The notes under the pieces: model-generated
The model's input: the letters and a program-made list of their open reading frames with translations, nothing else
The model's database searches: none
Told to the model about the DNA's origin: nothing
Program-made: the position numbers and the translations under genes
Source of the DNA: Acidobacteriota bacterium
Lineage (GTDB): Bacteria > Acidobacteriota > Thermoanaerobaculia > Gp7-AA8
DNA length: 64,000 nt
Reading direction: 5' to 3'
Assembly (NCBI GenBank): GCA_003223645.1
Contig: QHVT01000004.1
Location: forward strand, 123,334 to 187,333
Shown here: positions 52,686 to 59,685 of the stretch, in pieces
Position numbering within the stretch: the first letter of the stretch is position 1
Layout: the number at the start of each line of letters is the position of its first letter

Positions 52686-53000
52686 ATGGCGGCAAATGCG
52701 TGGTCGATCAATATCGTCGACGGGAACCCCTGCAAGTTCGAGCCTGACGTCTACGTTCCACCCGGCACGCCGCCGCCGACCGTCCTGACGGCGGAGACCA
52801 ACGATTCGATTTCCTGGAACAACCAGACCAGTCTGGAGCACCGGATCTATACCGAGTCCGGCGGCGCAGAGGTTCATCTCACCGGGCTCATTCCGGCATA
52901 CGGCTCGTCGAATGCGTTCTCGCCTCAAGCCGTCCAGACCATCGACTACTTCTGTTGCCTGCATCCGGACGAGAAGGGCACGATCGAGGTGAAGTCGTGA
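52686..53000 (+). CDS. Cupredoxin-like protein without obvious signal peptide
   Basis: A 104-residue beta-sandwich protein: NAWSINIVDGNPCKFEPDVY, NDSISWNNQTSLEHRIYT, YFCCLHPDEKGTIEV. The Cys-x-x-His-Pro-x-x-x-Gly arrangement matches the type 1 copper loop of amicyanin/plastocyanin-like proteins, and His in SLEHRI would be the other ligand. The usual axial Met position is Glu (HPDE). No export signal is visible, odd for a cupredoxin next to exported oxidases. It overlaps the multicopper oxidase gene by 4 nt (GTGA), so they are coupled. Confidence 0.75.
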   Translation: MAANAWSINIVDGNPCKFEPDVYVPPGTPPPTVLTAETNDSISWNNQTSLEHRIYTESGGAEVHLTGLIPAYGSSNAFSPQAVQTIDYFCCLHPDEKGTIEVKS

Positions 53001-55471
53001 GGCGCGCGATCCTGCTCATTCTTCTCATCCCCGCCGTTGCATTGCCGCTCGCCGCCCAAGGCACGAATCAGTTCAACTGCAAGGAGCTCGCGGGGAAAGA
53101 ACTGCAGAAGATTCCGGAGATCGAATCCGTGGACGGCGTGCTGCACGGCACGCTCTACACCGTCTCGGAAATGCAGAAGCAGCCGGCGCCCACCGCGACC
53201 ACGAGCGCGCCGAACTGCGTCGCGCAGTGGGTGCGCGCCTATCGCGTCGATGCGCCGAAGAACTGGAATCCGTCCGCGAAGGACATCCAGGATCCGCTGC
53301 CCGGACCGACGCTCCGCGCGAAGGTCGGCGACGTCATCCAGTTGACGTTCCTCAACGTCATCGACGCGAACAAGTTCCCCGGCGCCGACGACAACAAGTG
53401 CGACGAGACCATCAACCAGCAGGGACAGAACATCTACCCCGGCACCTTCGACAAATACCCCGACTGCTTCGCCGGCTCGGTCTACACGAACGTGCACTAC
53501 CACGGCACGCACACGACTCCGAACACGACCGGCGACAACGTCTTCCTGCAGATCAAACCGTCGCCGCGGAAAAACGACGCAACGCGTCAGCCGGTCATTG
53601 ACGAGAGCACGGTGCACGCCGCGTTCGACGACTTCTTCACGCTGTGCAAGACGAAGCTCCTGAACGTCTCCGGTCCGACGGAGTGGCCGCGCCTCTGGCG
53701 CGATCTCCCGACATCGACGCAGAACGCTCTCCTCGGTCCGGTGCAAACGTACATGCCCGAGTGGTACGCAATCGATCAGAAGCTGATCGCGCAGGGAAGC
53801 TGGCCGCAGTACTTCGTCGGCGGGTATCCGTACTGCTTCAAGCTGCCGAAATACAACGACGCCTCGAACGCGACGACCGCATCGGCCGACGCACGCACGC
53901 CGCACACGCACGGCATGGGCACGGCTGAAGTCGATGAGGCGGCGGCACCCACGCGGCCGCTGCTCATGGGACAGGCGCCCGGCACGCACTGGTATCACGC
54001 GCACAAGCACGGCTCGACGACGATCAACGTGTCCAATGGCATGACCGGCGCGTTCATCATCGAGGGGCAGTACGACAAGGACCTCAACGATTTCTACGGC
54101 GACGGTTTCACGCGCAGGGTTCCGCCGATCGTCGTCAATCAGCTCGGCAGCGTCCCCGGTCTCAGCGTCGGCGCCTTCCTCGGGCCGGGACCAAACTTCT
54201 CCGTCAACGGCCGCATTCAACCGACGATCAAAATGGCCGGCAAATCGGTGGCGATGTGGCGCATCGTCAACTCCGCGAGTCGCGCCGGCATGTACTTCCT
54301 GCCGCCCACGAGCCTGCAGTGGAAACAGATCGCGCAGGACGGCGTGCAATTCAAGGAAGAGAACTACCAGGCGAACACGAGTCAGACGTTCACGTTGATG
54401 TCCGGCAACCGCGCCGACCTCCTCGTCAAGGCGCCGGCATACAACGAGAAGGACAAGAGCAAGAACGTGTATCCGGTGCTCGTCTACAACACCGTCGATC
54501 CGAGTGACCGGCCGCCCGCGCGTCCTTTCTTCCCCACCGCGACGCTGATGAACGTCGAGGTCACCAAGGACGGCCAGGAAATGCAGTTCATGCCGCAGGC
54601 GCCGGCGTTTCCGCCGTTCCTCAAGGACATCAAAGACAGCGACATCACCGGCACGAAGATCATCAAGTTCGCGACGAAGCCGGGCACGCCGTCCGCGCAG
54701 CAGCAGACGATCGACGGCAAGCAGTTCGACGGCGAAGTCGGCGCGGTCGTGCTGCTGAATCGCTCCGAAGAGTGGAAGATCGTCAACGAAACCTATCCGC
54801 CGTCGACGGGACCGCAGATCTCGCATCCCTTCCACATCCACATCAACCCCTTCCAGGTCACCGAGCTGTTCGATCCGAACGAAGTGCTGTCGTCACCCAA
54901 TGGCGCGGGGACCGTGACGATCAATTCGGTGACGGACGCGCAAGGTGTCACGACCACGACGGTGACGGGCAGCGCGGAGACCAACTTCACGCGCGACTTC
55001 CACATTGGCGATTGGATCTGGACGAACGGCCAGGCGGCCACCGGTCCACCCGCTGCACCTCCCGGCATCGTGCAGAAGATCGTCGACGAGCACACGCTGC
55101 TGATCGATACGAACAAGTCGGTGAATGCCGCGTCGCCCTACCAGATTGCCGTGCCGCTCTACACGATCGACGCGAACAACGTGCGGGCCGGGCAATGCCT
55201 CATCGATCCGAACAATCCGAAGCCGTGCACGAAGCCGCCGGCGACGAATCTCATCTGGTGGGACACGTTCGCGATTCCGTCAGGCAACAACTTCTACAAC
55301 GCGGCCACGAACACCTGGACGCAGGTGCCCGGCCACTTCCGGATGCGCAGCAACTTCGTCGACTACGCCGGCTACTACGTCATCCACTGCCACATCCTCG
55401 CGCATGAAGACCGCGGAATGATGACGGTAGTGGAAGTCGCGCCGCTGCAGTCGCCGTACTCGCACCACTGA
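52997..55471 (+). CDS. Exported multicopper oxidase
   Basis: An 824-residue oxidase with a Sec signal (RRAILLILLIPAVALPLAAQ). All four copper motifs are visible: VHYHGTHT (about 164-170), HWYHAHKHG (about 331), HPFHIHINPF (about 610) and HCHILAHEDRGMM (about 796), the last supplying the type 1 Cys and Met. It oxidises a substrate by one-electron steps and reduces oxygen to water. It is larger than usual: domain 3 has an insertion of about 100 residues after HPFHIHINPF, rich in Thr (VTDAQGVTTTTVTG). GTG 52997 is coupled to the cupredoxin stop. Confidence 0.93.
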   Translation: MRRAILLILLIPAVALPLAAQGTNQFNCKELAGKELQKIPEIESVDGVLHGTLYTVSEMQKQPAPTATTSAPNCVAQWVRAYRVDAPKNWNPSAKDIQDPLPGPTLRAKVGDVIQLTFLNVIDANKFPGADDNKCDETINQQGQNIYPGTFDKYPDCFAGSVYTNVHYHGTHTTPNTTGDNVFLQIKPSPRKNDATRQPVIDESTVHAAFDDFFTLCKTKLLNVSGPTEWPRLWRDLPTSTQNALLGPVQTYMPEWYAIDQKLIAQGSWPQYFVGGYPYCFKLPKYNDASNATTASADARTPHTHGMGTAEVDEAAAPTRPLLMGQAPGTHWYHAHKHGSTTINVSNGMTGAFIIEGQYDKDLNDFYGDGFTRRVPPIVVNQLGSVPGLSVGAFLGPGPNFSVNGRIQPTIKMAGKSVAMWRIVNSASRAGMYFLPPTSLQWKQIAQDGVQFKEENYQANTSQTFTLMSGNRADLLVKAPAYNEKDKSKNVYPVLVYNTVDPSDRPPARPFFPTATLMNVEVTKDGQEMQFMPQAPAFPPFLKDIKDSDITGTKIIKFATKPGTPSAQQQTIDGKQFDGEVGAVVLLNRSEEWKIVNETYPPSTGPQISHPFHIHINPFQVTELFDPNEVLSSPNGAGTVTINSVTDAQGVTTTTVTGSAETNFTRDFHIGDWIWTNGQAATGPPAAPPGIVQKIVDEHTLLIDTNKSVNAASPYQIAVPLYTIDANNVRAGQCLIDPNNPKPCTKPPATNLIWWDTFAIPSGNNFYNAATNTWTQVPGHFRMRSNFVDYAGYYVIHCHILAHEDRGMMTVVEVAPLQSPYSHH

Positions 55472-55486
55472 CGATAGGAGGAGAGT

Positions 55487-56659
55487 ATGGCCCGTTCCGT
55501 ACTGCCGTTCCCCGTTTCCCGCCGCAAGTTCCTTGCAAGCACCGCCGCGGCAACGGCGGGCCTGGCTCTCGCTCCGCTCGCTGCCGCCGCCGAGTCACCG
55601 GGCTGCAAACGCCTGCGCGAGATCAGCGAAGGATGGGACACCGCGGTGCGTCCCATGCTCGCCAGCCGCTACCATCGCCTGCAACACGTCTTCTTCCACT
55701 ACATCCGGAACAACTGGGACCGGCTGACCGCTGCGCAACAACGCGCGCTCACCGATCTGAAATGGGCTGCGCCGCGCGCCTCACTCTTCGCGCCGACGTG
55801 GAGCAAGCGCCCCAATCCCGACGACAACACCGTCGTCTGGGCGACGCACAACGGCTCGGGCATCGACTTTCTCTACTTCCATCGCTGGATGATCGCGATG
55901 GTCAACAAGCTGCTGAGCGACGCAGGAAAACCGACGCTCGCGGCGTGGTCCGACACCGATACGATCCCCGCGCCGAAACGCGGCTGTCCCGACGAATCGG
56001 TTCCCGACTTCACTCCGTGGTTCGAGGATCCGTCCGGCCCGCCGATTCGCGTCGAGTGGCTGCAGCTGCGCGTCAAAGAGATGAAGAGCGATTCGTTCTA
56101 CTGGGACCGGATGAACTGGTGGGGCATCGAGTTCCGCGACTTCGGCGCGCTGCGCAACATGACGCTGGGGGAGCTCGGATCGCGGCTCGAGTTCAGCGTT
56201 CACAATCAGATGCACATCCGCTGGTCCGCCTTTCCGTCGAACGGATCGCTCACCATCCGCGACGAGCCCGACTTCCGCGCAAAGTGGGACGACCCCGGCT
56301 ACGACACACTGTTCGACGAATACTCGTCGCACGTCACCCCGATCTTCTTCCGCCTCCACAAATGGATCGACAACCGCATCGAGGATTGGGCCGAGGCGCA
56401 GCGAGAGCGCTTGACGCGCTACGACACCGGCCTGGGATTCGACTGGTTCAAAGGATCATCGCAGTGGATCGAAGTCGACCAGCCATGGTCCAGTCCGTAC
56501 GGCATGCACCATCCGACTCCCGAGGAGCAGAAGCTCCGCATCGCGACGATGGAAAAGATCGGACCGATCCTCTTCCCGCCGAAGGCCCTCGGAAAACGCA
56601 CGCCGGAGGAACAGGAACAGGACGAGAGACGCATCCTGAGCATTCGCGACCTGGCGTAA
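55487..56659 (+). CDS. Tat-exported tyrosinase-like type 3 copper protein
   Basis: 390 residues with a twin-arginine signal (SRRKFLASTAAATAG). A possible CuA site: His in LQHVFFHYIRNNW (66/70), HNGSGIDFLYFHRWM (His121, His131). A possible CuB site: VHNQMHIRW (His240, His244) and FFRLHKWIDNRIEDW (His290). This matches the tyrosinase/polyphenol-oxidase pattern, although divergent. Tat export fits a folded, cofactor-bearing enzyme. AGGAGGAGAG precedes the ATG. Third gene of the copper operon; the partner oxidases suggest oxidation of phenolics or polymer precursors outside the cell. Confidence 0.82.
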   Translation: MARSVLPFPVSRRKFLASTAAATAGLALAPLAAAAESPGCKRLREISEGWDTAVRPMLASRYHRLQHVFFHYIRNNWDRLTAAQQRALTDLKWAAPRASLFAPTWSKRPNPDDNTVVWATHNGSGIDFLYFHRWMIAMVNKLLSDAGKPTLAAWSDTDTIPAPKRGCPDESVPDFTPWFEDPSGPPIRVEWLQLRVKEMKSDSFYWDRMNWWGIEFRDFGALRNMTLGELGSRLEFSVHNQMHIRWSAFPSNGSLTIRDEPDFRAKWDDPGYDTLFDEYSSHVTPIFFRLHKWIDNRIEDWAEAQRERLTRYDTGLGFDWFKGSSQWIEVDQPWSSPYGMHHPTPEEQKLRIATMEKIGPILFPPKALGKRTPEEQEQDERRILSIRDLA

Positions 56660-57148: not shown

Positions 57149-58102
57149 TCAGCCTTTGCGAGCGCGTTTGGTCCGGCTGCCGAGGGCCTCGTGGAGATCG
57201 TCGAAGATGACCAGCGCGCGCTCGATGCGCTCCTCGTCGCTCTCGGTGCGAGACATCAAGCCGTCGAGCATCATGCGTACGCCGGCGGCTTCGGCACGTC
57301 CGTACTTGCCGTCCTTGAGGTCGAGGTCGTGCACGATCTCCGCGATCGCGCGCACGCCCTTATCCGGCAATCCCACGCGGCCGATCAGCGTCTCGAACGT
57401 GCAGCGGTCTTCTTCGTGTGTGAAATCGCCGCCGACCATATCGAAGCGCAGCTCGCCGTCTTTGTTCGGGGCGGCGGGATCGGCGAAGCGGAATCGCGCT
57501 TTCGGATCGACGAAGCGGCGGATGAACCATGCCGACGCCATCCGATCGATCTTCACGCCGGGACGTGTAACCCACGTCTTTCCTCGCAGCTCCGGCTTTG
57601 TCTTCAGCATCCGAGTCTCCTCCTTCCGGTCCTTCTGCAGGCGGGTTTCGATCGCGGCCAGCGCTTCTTCGGCCGCCGCGCGCCGGTCGGCATCGAAGAA
57701 GTCGATCCTCCGGACCTCCTCGAGGCGGCGCAGCAGGCGTCCGTGTGCCGTCGCAAGCTCGGCCACCGCGGCCGCGCTTCGCGCTGCTTTCATCGCGGCG
57801 TGCGCGTCTGCGGCGATCGTGTCGTAGTCGGTGTTCCGCGCTTCGCGGAACTGTGCCACGGCGGCATCGCTCGCATCGCCATCGACGAAGTCACCGGCAA
57901 ACAGATGCGCGTCGCCGCCGCCGGTCACGATCTCCTGCGCAATCCATTGCAGGTCTTCCAGCGCATCGGAGCCCTGCGGCAGGAGGTAGACGGAGTTCTT
58001 CACCGCCACCGCGCCGACTTCGGCGAGCCGTTGACGCATCTTCGCGCGCAGATAAAGCGGACGGGGAGGGATGCGATGCACGAGAATCAGCCAGCGCGGC
58101 AC
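57149..58102 (-). CDS. chrB: ChrB chromate-resistance protein
   Basis: A 317-residue protein with both known parts of ChrB: an N-terminal half (about 1-150, WLILVHRIPPRPLYLRAKMRQRL and LEDLQWIAQEIVTGGG) and the C-terminal ChrB domain (TWVTRPGVKIDRMASAWFIRRFVDP, FTHEEDRCTFETLI). In other bacteria ChrB is a chromate-sensing regulator of chrA. The basic C-terminus (SRTKRARKG) is consistent with nucleic-acid contact. It is divergent from the ArsC-like/chrA genes, with an 11-bp inverted repeat between. Confidence 0.93.
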   Translation of the reverse strand: MPRWLILVHRIPPRPLYLRAKMRQRLAEVGAVAVKNSVYLLPQGSDALEDLQWIAQEIVTGGGDAHLFAGDFVDGDASDAAVAQFREARNTDYDTIAADAHAAMKAARSAAAVAELATAHGRLLRRLEEVRRIDFFDADRRAAAEEALAAIETRLQKDRKEETRMLKTKPELRGKTWVTRPGVKIDRMASAWFIRRFVDPKARFRFADPAAPNKDGELRFDMVGGDFTHEEDRCTFETLIGRVGLPDKGVRAIAEIVHDLDLKDGKYGRAEAAGVRMMLDGLMSRTESDEERIERALVIFDDLHEALGSRTKRARKG

Positions 58103-58111
58103 GGGTTGATA

Positions 58112-58145
58112 CTAGCAGTTGCACATCGTATCTAGCAACTGCTAG
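58112..58145. promoter_or_regulatory. Perfect 11-bp inverted repeat, probable operator between chrB and chrA operons
   Basis: CTAGCAGTTGC, a 12-bp spacer, then GCAACTGCTAG. It begins 10 bp from the chrB start and ends 10 bp from the start of the divergent gene, so it could control both. The half sites also form a near direct repeat (CTAGCAGTTGC and CTAGCAACTGC). Confidence 0.75.
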
Positions 58146-58154
58146 AGTCACGCT

Positions 58155-58538
58155 GTGAAAGAAATCCTGTTCCTCTGTCAGCATGGGGGCGCGAAGAGCG
58201 TCATCGCGGCGTCTCACTTCAATCGCGTTGCGGCCGAACGCGGCCTGCCGTTCGTCGCCACCGCGGCGGCAGCAGAAGACCCGTATGACACGGTTCCCGC
58301 ACCGGTCGCCGACTATCTGCACCGCGAAGGGACGGACGTTCGCGAGCTCACGCCGCATCACGTCGCGCCGGAGGAGATCGAGACAGCGGCGAGGATCATC
58401 ACCATCGGTTGCGACCTCTCCGGCGCCCACGAACGTTGGGACGACGTGCCGGCGGCGAGCGAGGATCTCGAAGGCTCCGTCGTCGCGATTCGACGGCACG
58501 TGGAACGATTGGCCGAGGATCTCGATGGCGACCGTTGA
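58155..58538 (+). CDS. LMW-phosphatase/ArsC-fold protein with variant P-loop
   Basis: 127 residues. ILFLCQHGGAKSVIAASHF gives the P-loop Cys-x5-Lys-Ser, where classical enzymes have Cys-x5-Arg-Ser. The expected general-acid region appears as ERWDDVPAASED. A second Cys lies in IITIGCDL, but the third Cys of thioredoxin-coupled arsenate reductases is missing. The Arg-to-Lys change and Cys pattern make an ordinary arsenate reductase unlikely. It heads the chrA operon, so a role in chromate or another oxyanion stress is inferred. GTG start at 58155. Confidence 0.78.
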   Translation: MKEILFLCQHGGAKSVIAASHFNRVAAERGLPFVATAAAAEDPYDTVPAPVADYLHREGTDVRELTPHHVAPEEIETAARIITIGCDLSGAHERWDDVPAASEDLEGSVVAIRRHVERLAEDLDGDR

Positions 58539-59685
58539 TGCCGGGGGGACGATGGTGCCCGCTCCGTCGCTTGCTGCCTTTGTTGCGTACTTCCTGCGGC
58601 TCGGCACCTTCGGTTTCGGCGGGCCGATCGCGCTCGCCGGCTACATGCAACGTGATCTCGTCGAGGAGCGCGGATGGGTGACGAAGGACGAATACGTGAA
58701 AGGGCTCGCGCTCGCGCAGCTCGCTCCCGGTCCGCTCGCCGCGCAGCTCGCGATCTACCTCGGATGGGCGAGGGCGGGGGTCTTCGGCGCAACGCTCGTC
58801 GCACTTGCGTTCGTGCTGCCGTCGTTTCTGATGGTGATCGCGATCTCGGTTGCGTACGTGCGCTTCGGCGGTCTGGCCTGGATGCAGTCCGCCTTCTATG
58901 GCATCGGCGCGGCGGTCATCGCCATCATCCTACGCAGCGCGTACAAGCTCGTGCGGCTGACGCTCGGCCGCGATTGGCTCCTGTGGACGATCTTCGTTGC
59001 GAACGCCGTCGCGACGGCCGCCATGCAGGCGGAAGTGGTCTCGCTCATTCTCGCCGGCGGCGTCGCGACGCTGGCCGTGCAGCTCTGGAAGTCGCGTACG
59101 ACAGCAGCGCTCTCGATCGTGCCGCCGTTGGCGCTCGCTGTATCCGGCAGCGCGACCCCCGCCACCGGCGGGACGCTGTTCTGGTTTTTCGCCAAAGCGG
59201 GCGCGTTCGTGTTCGGCAGCGGCCTCGCGATCGTGCCGTTTCTTTACGGCGGCGTCGTGCGCGAGCACGGTTGGCTCACCGACCAGCAGTTTCTCGACGC
59301 CGTCGCGGTCGCGATGATCACGCCCGGTCCCGTCGTCATCACGGTGGCGTTCATCGGCTATCTCGTGCACGGTCTCGGCGGCGCGTCGCTGGCCGCCCTC
59401 GGTGTATTCCTCCCGTGCTATCTCTTCGTCGTGATCCCCGCGCCGTTCTACGCGCGCTTTGCCGGCAACCCGCGGCTGAAGGCGTTTGTGGACGGGGTCA
59501 CCGCGGCGGCGACGGGAGCAATCGCCGGCGCGGTTTACGTGCTTGCGCGCCGGGCAATCATCGATGTTCCAACGATCCTGATCTTCGCCGGCACGCTCGC
59601 GTGTCTGGTGTGGCTCAAGCGCGTGCCCGAGCCGGTCGTCATCGCGATCGTCGGCATTGCTTCAGTGCTGTTTCGCGCCGCCTGA
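58525..59685 (+). CDS. chrA: Chromate transporter, long-chain form
   Basis: A 386-residue membrane exporter of the CHR superfamily, which pumps chromate out using the proton gradient. It is the two-domain (LCHR) form. The N-half carries FLRLGTFGFGGPIALAGYMQ and LAQLAPGPLAAQLAIYLGW. The C-half repeats the pattern with FFAKAGAFVFGSGLAIVPFL and VAMITPGPVVITVAFIGYL. About ten TM helices. ATG 58525 overlaps the ArsC-like gene by 14 nt; an in-frame ATG at 58552 is possible. Confidence 0.95.
   Translation: MATVDAGGTMVPAPSLAAFVAYFLRLGTFGFGGPIALAGYMQRDLVEERGWVTKDEYVKGLALAQLAPGPLAAQLAIYLGWARAGVFGATLVALAFVLPSFLMVIAISVAYVRFGGLAWMQSAFYGIGAAVIAIILRSAYKLVRLTLGRDWLLWTIFVANAVATAAMQAEVVSLILAGGVATLAVQLWKSRTTAALSIVPPLALAVSGSATPATGGTLFWFFAKAGAFVFGSGLAIVPFLYGGVVREHGWLTDQQFLDAVAVAMITPGPVVITVAFIGYLVHGLGGASLAALGVFLPCYLFVVIPAPFYARFAGNPRLKAFVDGVTAAATGAIAGAVYVLARRAIIDVPTILIFAGTLACLVWLKRVPEPVVIAIVGIASVLFRAA

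Follow-up and report, generated by a model that had tools for sequence, protein, structure and literature searches.

Why should a cupredoxin, a multicopper oxidase and a tyrosinase-like protein be encoded back to back, and do the three belong to one oxidation pathway? The question is raised by a stretch of 64,000 nucleotides (nt), here called the window, from contig QHVT01000004.1 of the Acidobacteriota assembly GCA_003223645.1, in which three adjacent open reading frames for copper proteins lie on the plus strand in an operon-like array. We refer to them as CUP, MCO, and TYR (Table 1). The GTG start codon of MCO at 52997 lies within the stop of CUP (GTGA), giving an overlap of 4 nt, and 15 nt separate the end of MCO from the start of TYR. 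This arrangement had been described in an earlier reading made from the letters alone (the sequence-only reading), and it stands. With confidence a little short of even, we favor the view that the locus encodes an exported phenol- or catechol-oxidizing module in which the oxidase is served by a copper-binding partner of its own, probably located in the cytosol, and that it is related to, yet distinct from, gene clusters published in 2015. Gene order, protein families, ligand conservation, and export signals were read from sequence, and the roles proposed below are what we infer from them.

The cupredoxin-oxidase pair

Relatives of MCO were sought in 396 genomes of the phylum, 18 genomes of the family, and 162 genomes of a second class, and the flanking DNA was read. 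CUP lies immediately upstream of MCO and on the same strand at all 17 loci that retain upstream DNA, in families f1, f33, and f76; two more MCO loci (L035 and L066) are cut by a contig end and stand outside this count. The spacing ranges from a 4-nt overlap to a gap of 193 nt, with gene starts at the related loci set by a simple script, not by curated annotation. In two genera (L018 and L034), the two genes are fused into one reading frame, and a hydrophobic segment sits between the halves. The search with CUP and MCO covered this one phylum and a plasmid collection, and the latter yielded no match to either protein. Judged from these gene orders, the conserved unit is CUP plus MCO and not the trio. 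A strictly conserved trio was rejected, since none of the other CUP-MCO loci has the PvdP-type TYR.

MCO is a laccase-type, three-domain enzyme in which ten histidines and one cysteine, distributed over four motifs, provide the ligands for type 1, type 2, and type 3 copper. These ligands are invariant in 11 relatives, confirming the four-site oxidase that had been proposed. The best NCBIfam match is CueO (E 4e-12), with 45.7 bits against an equivalog cut-off of 525. Related MCOs carry a Sec-like segment or a twin-arginine (Tat)-like motif near the N terminus, the exception being L069, for which the start could not be fixed.

CUP matched no Pfam family, and as a single sequence it gave a weak match to amicyanin (E 3e-4). 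A profile built from 11 relatives, however, matches solved nitrite reductase, plastocyanin, and amicyanin chains (E 6.5e-9 to about 1e-7), which places the protein among the cupredoxins. The residues H52, C90, H93, and E96 form a His-Cys-His-Glu copper set that is invariant in 11 aligned sequences; E96 aligns with the axial residue 98 of amicyanin, so that an invariant Glu takes the place of the axial Met. Few cupredoxins are known to carry Glu in the axial position; a Glu ligand does occur in nitrosocyanin. Type 1 copper proteins generally receive their metal outside the cytoplasm. A hydrophobic N terminus of the signal peptide kind is absent from every CUP with a complete start, including that of the window, and this absence, together with the ligand set, indicates that CUP is not a standard exported blue-copper carrier. 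The sequence-only reading had taken it for an exported type 1-like protein, and that claim has to be given up. Some CUPs are extended beyond the copper motif. Those of genomes G025 (L022:8061-8477) and G497 (L070:6976-7371) have a lysine-rich C-terminal tail of three to four KTKKGAFGG-like tandem repeats, and another (L071:4847-5494) has an additional C-terminal domain of about 85 residues.

Table 1. Positions of the three genes and their sites in the window, and of selected genes at related loci (prefix L)
Feature	Position	Strand	Description	Basis
CUP	52686..53000	+	104-amino-acid (aa) cupredoxin without signal peptide	Open reading frame list, family profile, N terminus without hydrophobic stretch
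CUP H52	52839..52841	+	Putative first copper ligand	Invariant in 11 relatives
CUP C90-C-L-H93-P-D-E96-K-G	52953..52979	+	Copper motif	C90, H93, E96 invariant; amicyanin alignment
MCO	52997..55471	+	824-aa laccase-type multicopper oxidase	Pfam Cu-oxidase_2 and Cu-oxidase_3, PDB laccases
MCO signal	52997..53062	+	Sec-type signal, about 22 residues	Hydrophobic N terminus; end estimated by eye
MCO HYHGTH	53495..53512	+	Copper motif, residues 167-172	Motif search and alignment of relatives
MCO HWYHAHKH	53987..54010	+	Copper motif, residues 331-338	Motif search and alignment of relatives
MCO HPFHIH	54824..54841	+	Copper motif, residues 610-615	Motif search and alignment of relatives
MCO HCHILAHEDRGM	55385..55420	+	Copper motif, residues 797-808, axial Met	Motif search and alignment of relatives
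TYR	55487..56659	+	390-aa PvdP-type tyrosinase, catalytic part only	NCBIfam PvdP, PDB 6rrp
TYR SRRKFL	55517..55534	+	Twin-arginine motif	Sequence; TAT models matched under their cut-offs
TYR H63, H67, H71	55673..55699	+	Presumed CuA side	Alignments; H67, H71 kept in all homologues
TYR H132	55880..55882	+	Presumed CuA side, FHR motif	Homologue alignment
TYR H239, H243	56201..56215	+	Presumed CuB side, HxxxH	Homologue alignment
TYR H282, H291	56330..56359	+	Presumed CuB side, SSH...LHKWID	Homologue alignment
CUP-MCO fusions	L018:6158-8848; L034:8053-10581		In-frame fusions
Small protein genes	L037:6709-7137; L069:2515-2952; L082:291-698

Tyrosinases beside the pair and the LodA clusters

TYR matches the PvdP model of NCBIfam (E 3.7e-37; 128 bits, below the equivalog cut-off of 625) and the PvdP structure 6rrp (E 8.9e-30), whereas no match to the Pfam tyrosinase family PF00264 was found at E values up to 1. 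The Tat tyrosinase-like protein of the sequence-only reading is therefore upheld by the PvdP matches and the SRRKFL motif, though not by PF00264. Seven histidines (H67, H71, H132, H239, H243, H282, and H291) are common to TYR, to PvdP, and to the homologues aligned, which came from rhizobia, Paenibacillus, an actinobacterium, and another member of the phylum. These are the ligand histidines expected of a PvdP-type, type 3 copper tyrosinase, and because they are shared, the binuclear copper site of TYR looks intact from the alignment, the exact role of each ligand being presumptive. PvdP oxidizes peptide-bound tyrosine during pyoverdine maturation and acts in the periplasm (PMC6206403). The match of TYR begins only at about position 199-207 of PvdP, so that the N-terminal domain is absent and there is no ground for taking the substrate to be that of PvdP.

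The PvdP-type TYR accompanies CUP-MCO in the window genome only. At two other loci, the same pair is joined by a tyrosinase of the PF00264 type, encoded on the same strand, together with LodA and LodB. The order is tyrosinase-LodA-small protein-LodB-CUP-MCO at L037, in a genome of the same taxonomic family (G401), and CUP-MCO-tyrosinase-LodA-small protein-LodB at L069 (G509, family f33). LodA and LodB were named by NCBIfam at L037, and the tyrosinase by a PF00264 match at the same place in G401; at L069, LodA and the tyrosinase were named by Pfam and LodB by BLAST. The proposed co-occurrence of three genes is thus seen in a looser form, with a PF00264 tyrosinase at these two loci, and fails for the PvdP type itself. 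The sequence-only reading had also not recognized a described system. This is not true in full, since operons of LodA group ID, reported by Campillo-Brocal et al. in 2015, include a tyrosinase and a multicopper oxidase beside lodA and lodB, with function noted as unknown (PMC4417212). On rhizobial plasmids, the order is MCO-tyrosinase-LodA-small protein-LodB; the MCO there is distant, and CUP was not found.

That two unrelated tyrosinase families adjoin the same CUP-MCO unit suggests that the pairing with a tyrosinase is selected. A tyrosinase stands in the cluster at 3 of the 17 CUP-MCO loci, an outcome with a chance of about 1e-4 if a 6-Mb genome holds about three tyrosinases (0 to 4 matches per genome were observed). 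With the window left out, since it was chosen for its tyrosinase, the count is 2 of 16 and the chance about 4e-3, calculated by hand with the same formula. Both figures are rough, as the loci are mutually related.

The small protein of the group ID operons, described as having no conserved domain (PMC4417212), matches the N-terminal part of a PvdP-like tyrosinase from Mesorhizobium (E 8e-16 to 1e-19), whose own match to the PvdP model begins at position 55. Searched by itself against the PDB, the small protein had no match, and the link to PvdP runs via the Mesorhizobium protein. On these matches, the small protein and the N-terminal domain of PvdP-like tyrosinases are homologs, and since TYR corresponds to the catalytic part, both PvdP-like halves occur in such neighborhoods: the N-terminal one is encoded by the small gene in group ID operons, and the catalytic one is the TYR of the window. 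Neither lodA, nor a small gene of 138 to 142 aa, nor lodB lies beside the window operon, and the small gene was not found in the host genome (G000) at E 1e-8.

Several related arrangements were seen elsewhere. In G380 (L082), the small protein gene lies near a contig end, and LodA was not recognized beside it. On a plasmid of Mesorhizobium onobrychidis (L005:5506-10163), the PvdP-like tyrosinase with its N-terminal domain adjoins a GoxA-like cysteine tryptophylquinone (CTQ) oxidase and a LodB-like flavoprotein; pyoverdine genes are not annotated nearby. On contig 86 of G392 (L054:6726-12683), a long gene matching PF00264 has GoxA-like and LodB-like genes immediately behind it. Two GoxA-like CTQ oxidase genes are present in the host genome, on contig 25 (L052) and contig 15 (L053); at about 1270-1310 aa they are long, roughly double the usual size, and a LodB-like gene was recognized beside the L053 gene only. 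Downstream of the window operon, at 57149-59685, there is a ChrB-like gene on the minus strand and, on the plus strand, a gene that weakly matches low-molecular-weight phosphatases plus a chromate-transporter-like reading frame. Promoter and terminator scans of the locus gave results near chance level.

Proposed function and alternative explanations

In the module that we favor, TYR would act outside the cytoplasm, hydroxylating a phenol, either free or peptide bound and tyrosine-like, to a catechol or o-quinone. MCO would then oxidize the catechol or couple phenoxyl radicals, passing the electrons to O2. CUP would bind copper on the cytoplasmic side, dedicated to MCO, and could serve as a cytosolic copper gauge that lets MCO be made only when copper is available, aided by the 4-nt translational overlap, or it could hold copper for MCO maturation. 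The export signals on MCO and TYR agree with the dedicated exported pathway suggested earlier, from which the signal-less CUP departs. It is possible, though on balance doubtful, that CUP represents a genuinely cytoplasmic cupredoxin family with a natural His-Cys-His-Glu site, each member serving one secreted MCO across the membrane, whether by gauging copper or by helping to load it; where the two are fused, the hydrophobic segment may join them physically. If so, a signal-less, axial-Glu cupredoxin constantly paired with a secreted MCO would represent a new means of linking oxidase production to the supply of copper. With MCO found alongside LodA and two unrelated tyrosinase families, the unexplained group ID clusters can be tested as a single phenol/quinone pathway, for which the homology of the small protein to the PvdP-like N-terminal domain provides a first structural lead.

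Several observations weigh against this proposal. In 14 of the 17 CUP-MCO loci there is no tyrosinase in the DNA that was read, some of it near contig ends, and another genome of the same genus (G407) has CUP-MCO but no TYR; the pair can therefore work without a tyrosinase. The Cys/His pair is gone from the distant CUPs of L036 and L072. Copper binding is thus dispensable in some cases, and in those lineages CUP may be structural. Folding of the CUP/MCO junction gave no CutF-like RNA stem above chance (z 0.17). Structure predictions for TYR from two sequences and for CUP from a single sequence had confidence scores (predicted local distance difference test, pLDDT) of 32 and 47, respectively, too low for testing the sites.

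The locus might instead combine two things that are independent, a conserved CUP-MCO unit serving a purpose of its own and a PvdP-type tyrosinase that was acquired and simply happens to lie behind it, and to this we assign a real, if clearly minor, likelihood. TYR is indeed rare, being found in 1 of the 18 genomes of the family and in 2 of the 396 of the phylum, and it is missing from G407; relatives 30-39% identical to it are dispersed among actinobacteria, Paenibacillus, and rhizobia, where they lie in unrelated contexts. The genome contig scan with TYR found one relative, in Planomonospora, with no MCO or CUP recognized nearby. However, the gene follows MCO closely on the same strand, its base composition (G+C at third codon positions, GC3, 0.83) resembles that of neighboring genes and so gives no sign of a very recent arrival, and an unrelated tyrosinase joins the same unit at L037 and L069. 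Those two loci, where the partners are LodA and a tyrosinase, also argue against copper tolerance, in which MCO would oxidize Cu(I) in the manner of CueO, CUP would buffer copper in the cytosol, and TYR would have no part. CueO as best family match and a signal-less CUP that retains copper-type ligands would fit such a role, but the CueO score is far under its cut-off, no copper ATPase or copper regulator was recognized beside the window operon, and the metal-related neighbor identified there is the ChrB-like chromate gene; we consider this explanation unlikely.

The location of CUP bears on a further alternative, that it is a true redox carrier reaching the periplasm by an unrecognized route and passing electrons from TYR or the substrate to MCO. 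The type 1-like His-Cys-His set, the cupredoxin family profile, the constant pairing with MCO, and the two fusions all speak for a carrier. Nevertheless, we regard it as quite improbable, given that CUP has a signal peptide at no locus with a complete start, that the hydrophobic segment following CUP in the fusions would put CUP on the cytoplasmic side, and that the axial residue is Glu and the ligands are lost in two relatives. There is, lastly, a very slight chance that the module oxidizes residues of partner proteins, for example in maturing quinone-bearing oxidases of the LodA/GoxA type. LodA and LodB do cluster with CUP-MCO at L037 and L069, the Mesorhizobium PvdP-like tyrosinase stands beside GoxA-like and LodB-like genes, and the host has two GoxA-like genes of its own. 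Those genes, however, are on other contigs, the LodA-like proteins seen here have no obvious export signal, unlike MCO and TYR, and LodB-type flavoproteins already serve maturation (PMC4417212).

Comparison with known systems

Each of the three proteins resembles a known one in part. CUP shares the cupredoxin profile and His-Cys-His ligands of amicyanin and plastocyanin but differs in having Glu for the axial Met, no signal peptide, and MCO as partner. MCO has the four copper motifs and the export signal of CueO and bacterial laccases, whereas its length of 824 aa, the roughly 160 residues separating motifs one and two, scores far under the family cut-offs, and the obligate cupredoxin upstream set it apart. 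With PvdP of Pseudomonas, TYR shares the catalytic part with its conserved histidines and an export motif; it differs in scoring far under the NCBIfam cut-off, in having no N-terminal domain, and in that pyoverdine genes were not recognized beside it.

For the pair, CutF-CutO of Rhodobacter capsulatus offers a parallel, as there, too, the gene just upstream of a multicopper oxidase encodes a small protein with a copper motif. That protein, CutF, is exported, and a stem-loop and a proline-rich end take part in its action (PMC8456105, PMC9973294); CUP, in contrast, is a signal-less cupredoxin, and neither an exported upstream protein nor an mRNA stem before the oxidase was found for CUP-MCO. CupA of Streptococcus pneumoniae, a cupredoxin fold that handles intracellular copper (PMC5646241), is a precedent for the proposed role of CUP, but it acts on behalf of the CopA exporter and carries a membrane leader, and it was compared with CUP by description only. 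Both systems are precedents, yet CUP fits the definition of neither. Among the LodA group ID operons, those of rhizobia contain a distant MCO, and CUP was not found there; the window, for its part, has no lodA, small gene, or lodB alongside, and its tyrosinase is of the PvdP type and not PF00264. What the window shares with them is a multicopper oxidase and a tyrosinase encoded together, and at L037 and L069 CUP-MCO itself stands in such a cluster.

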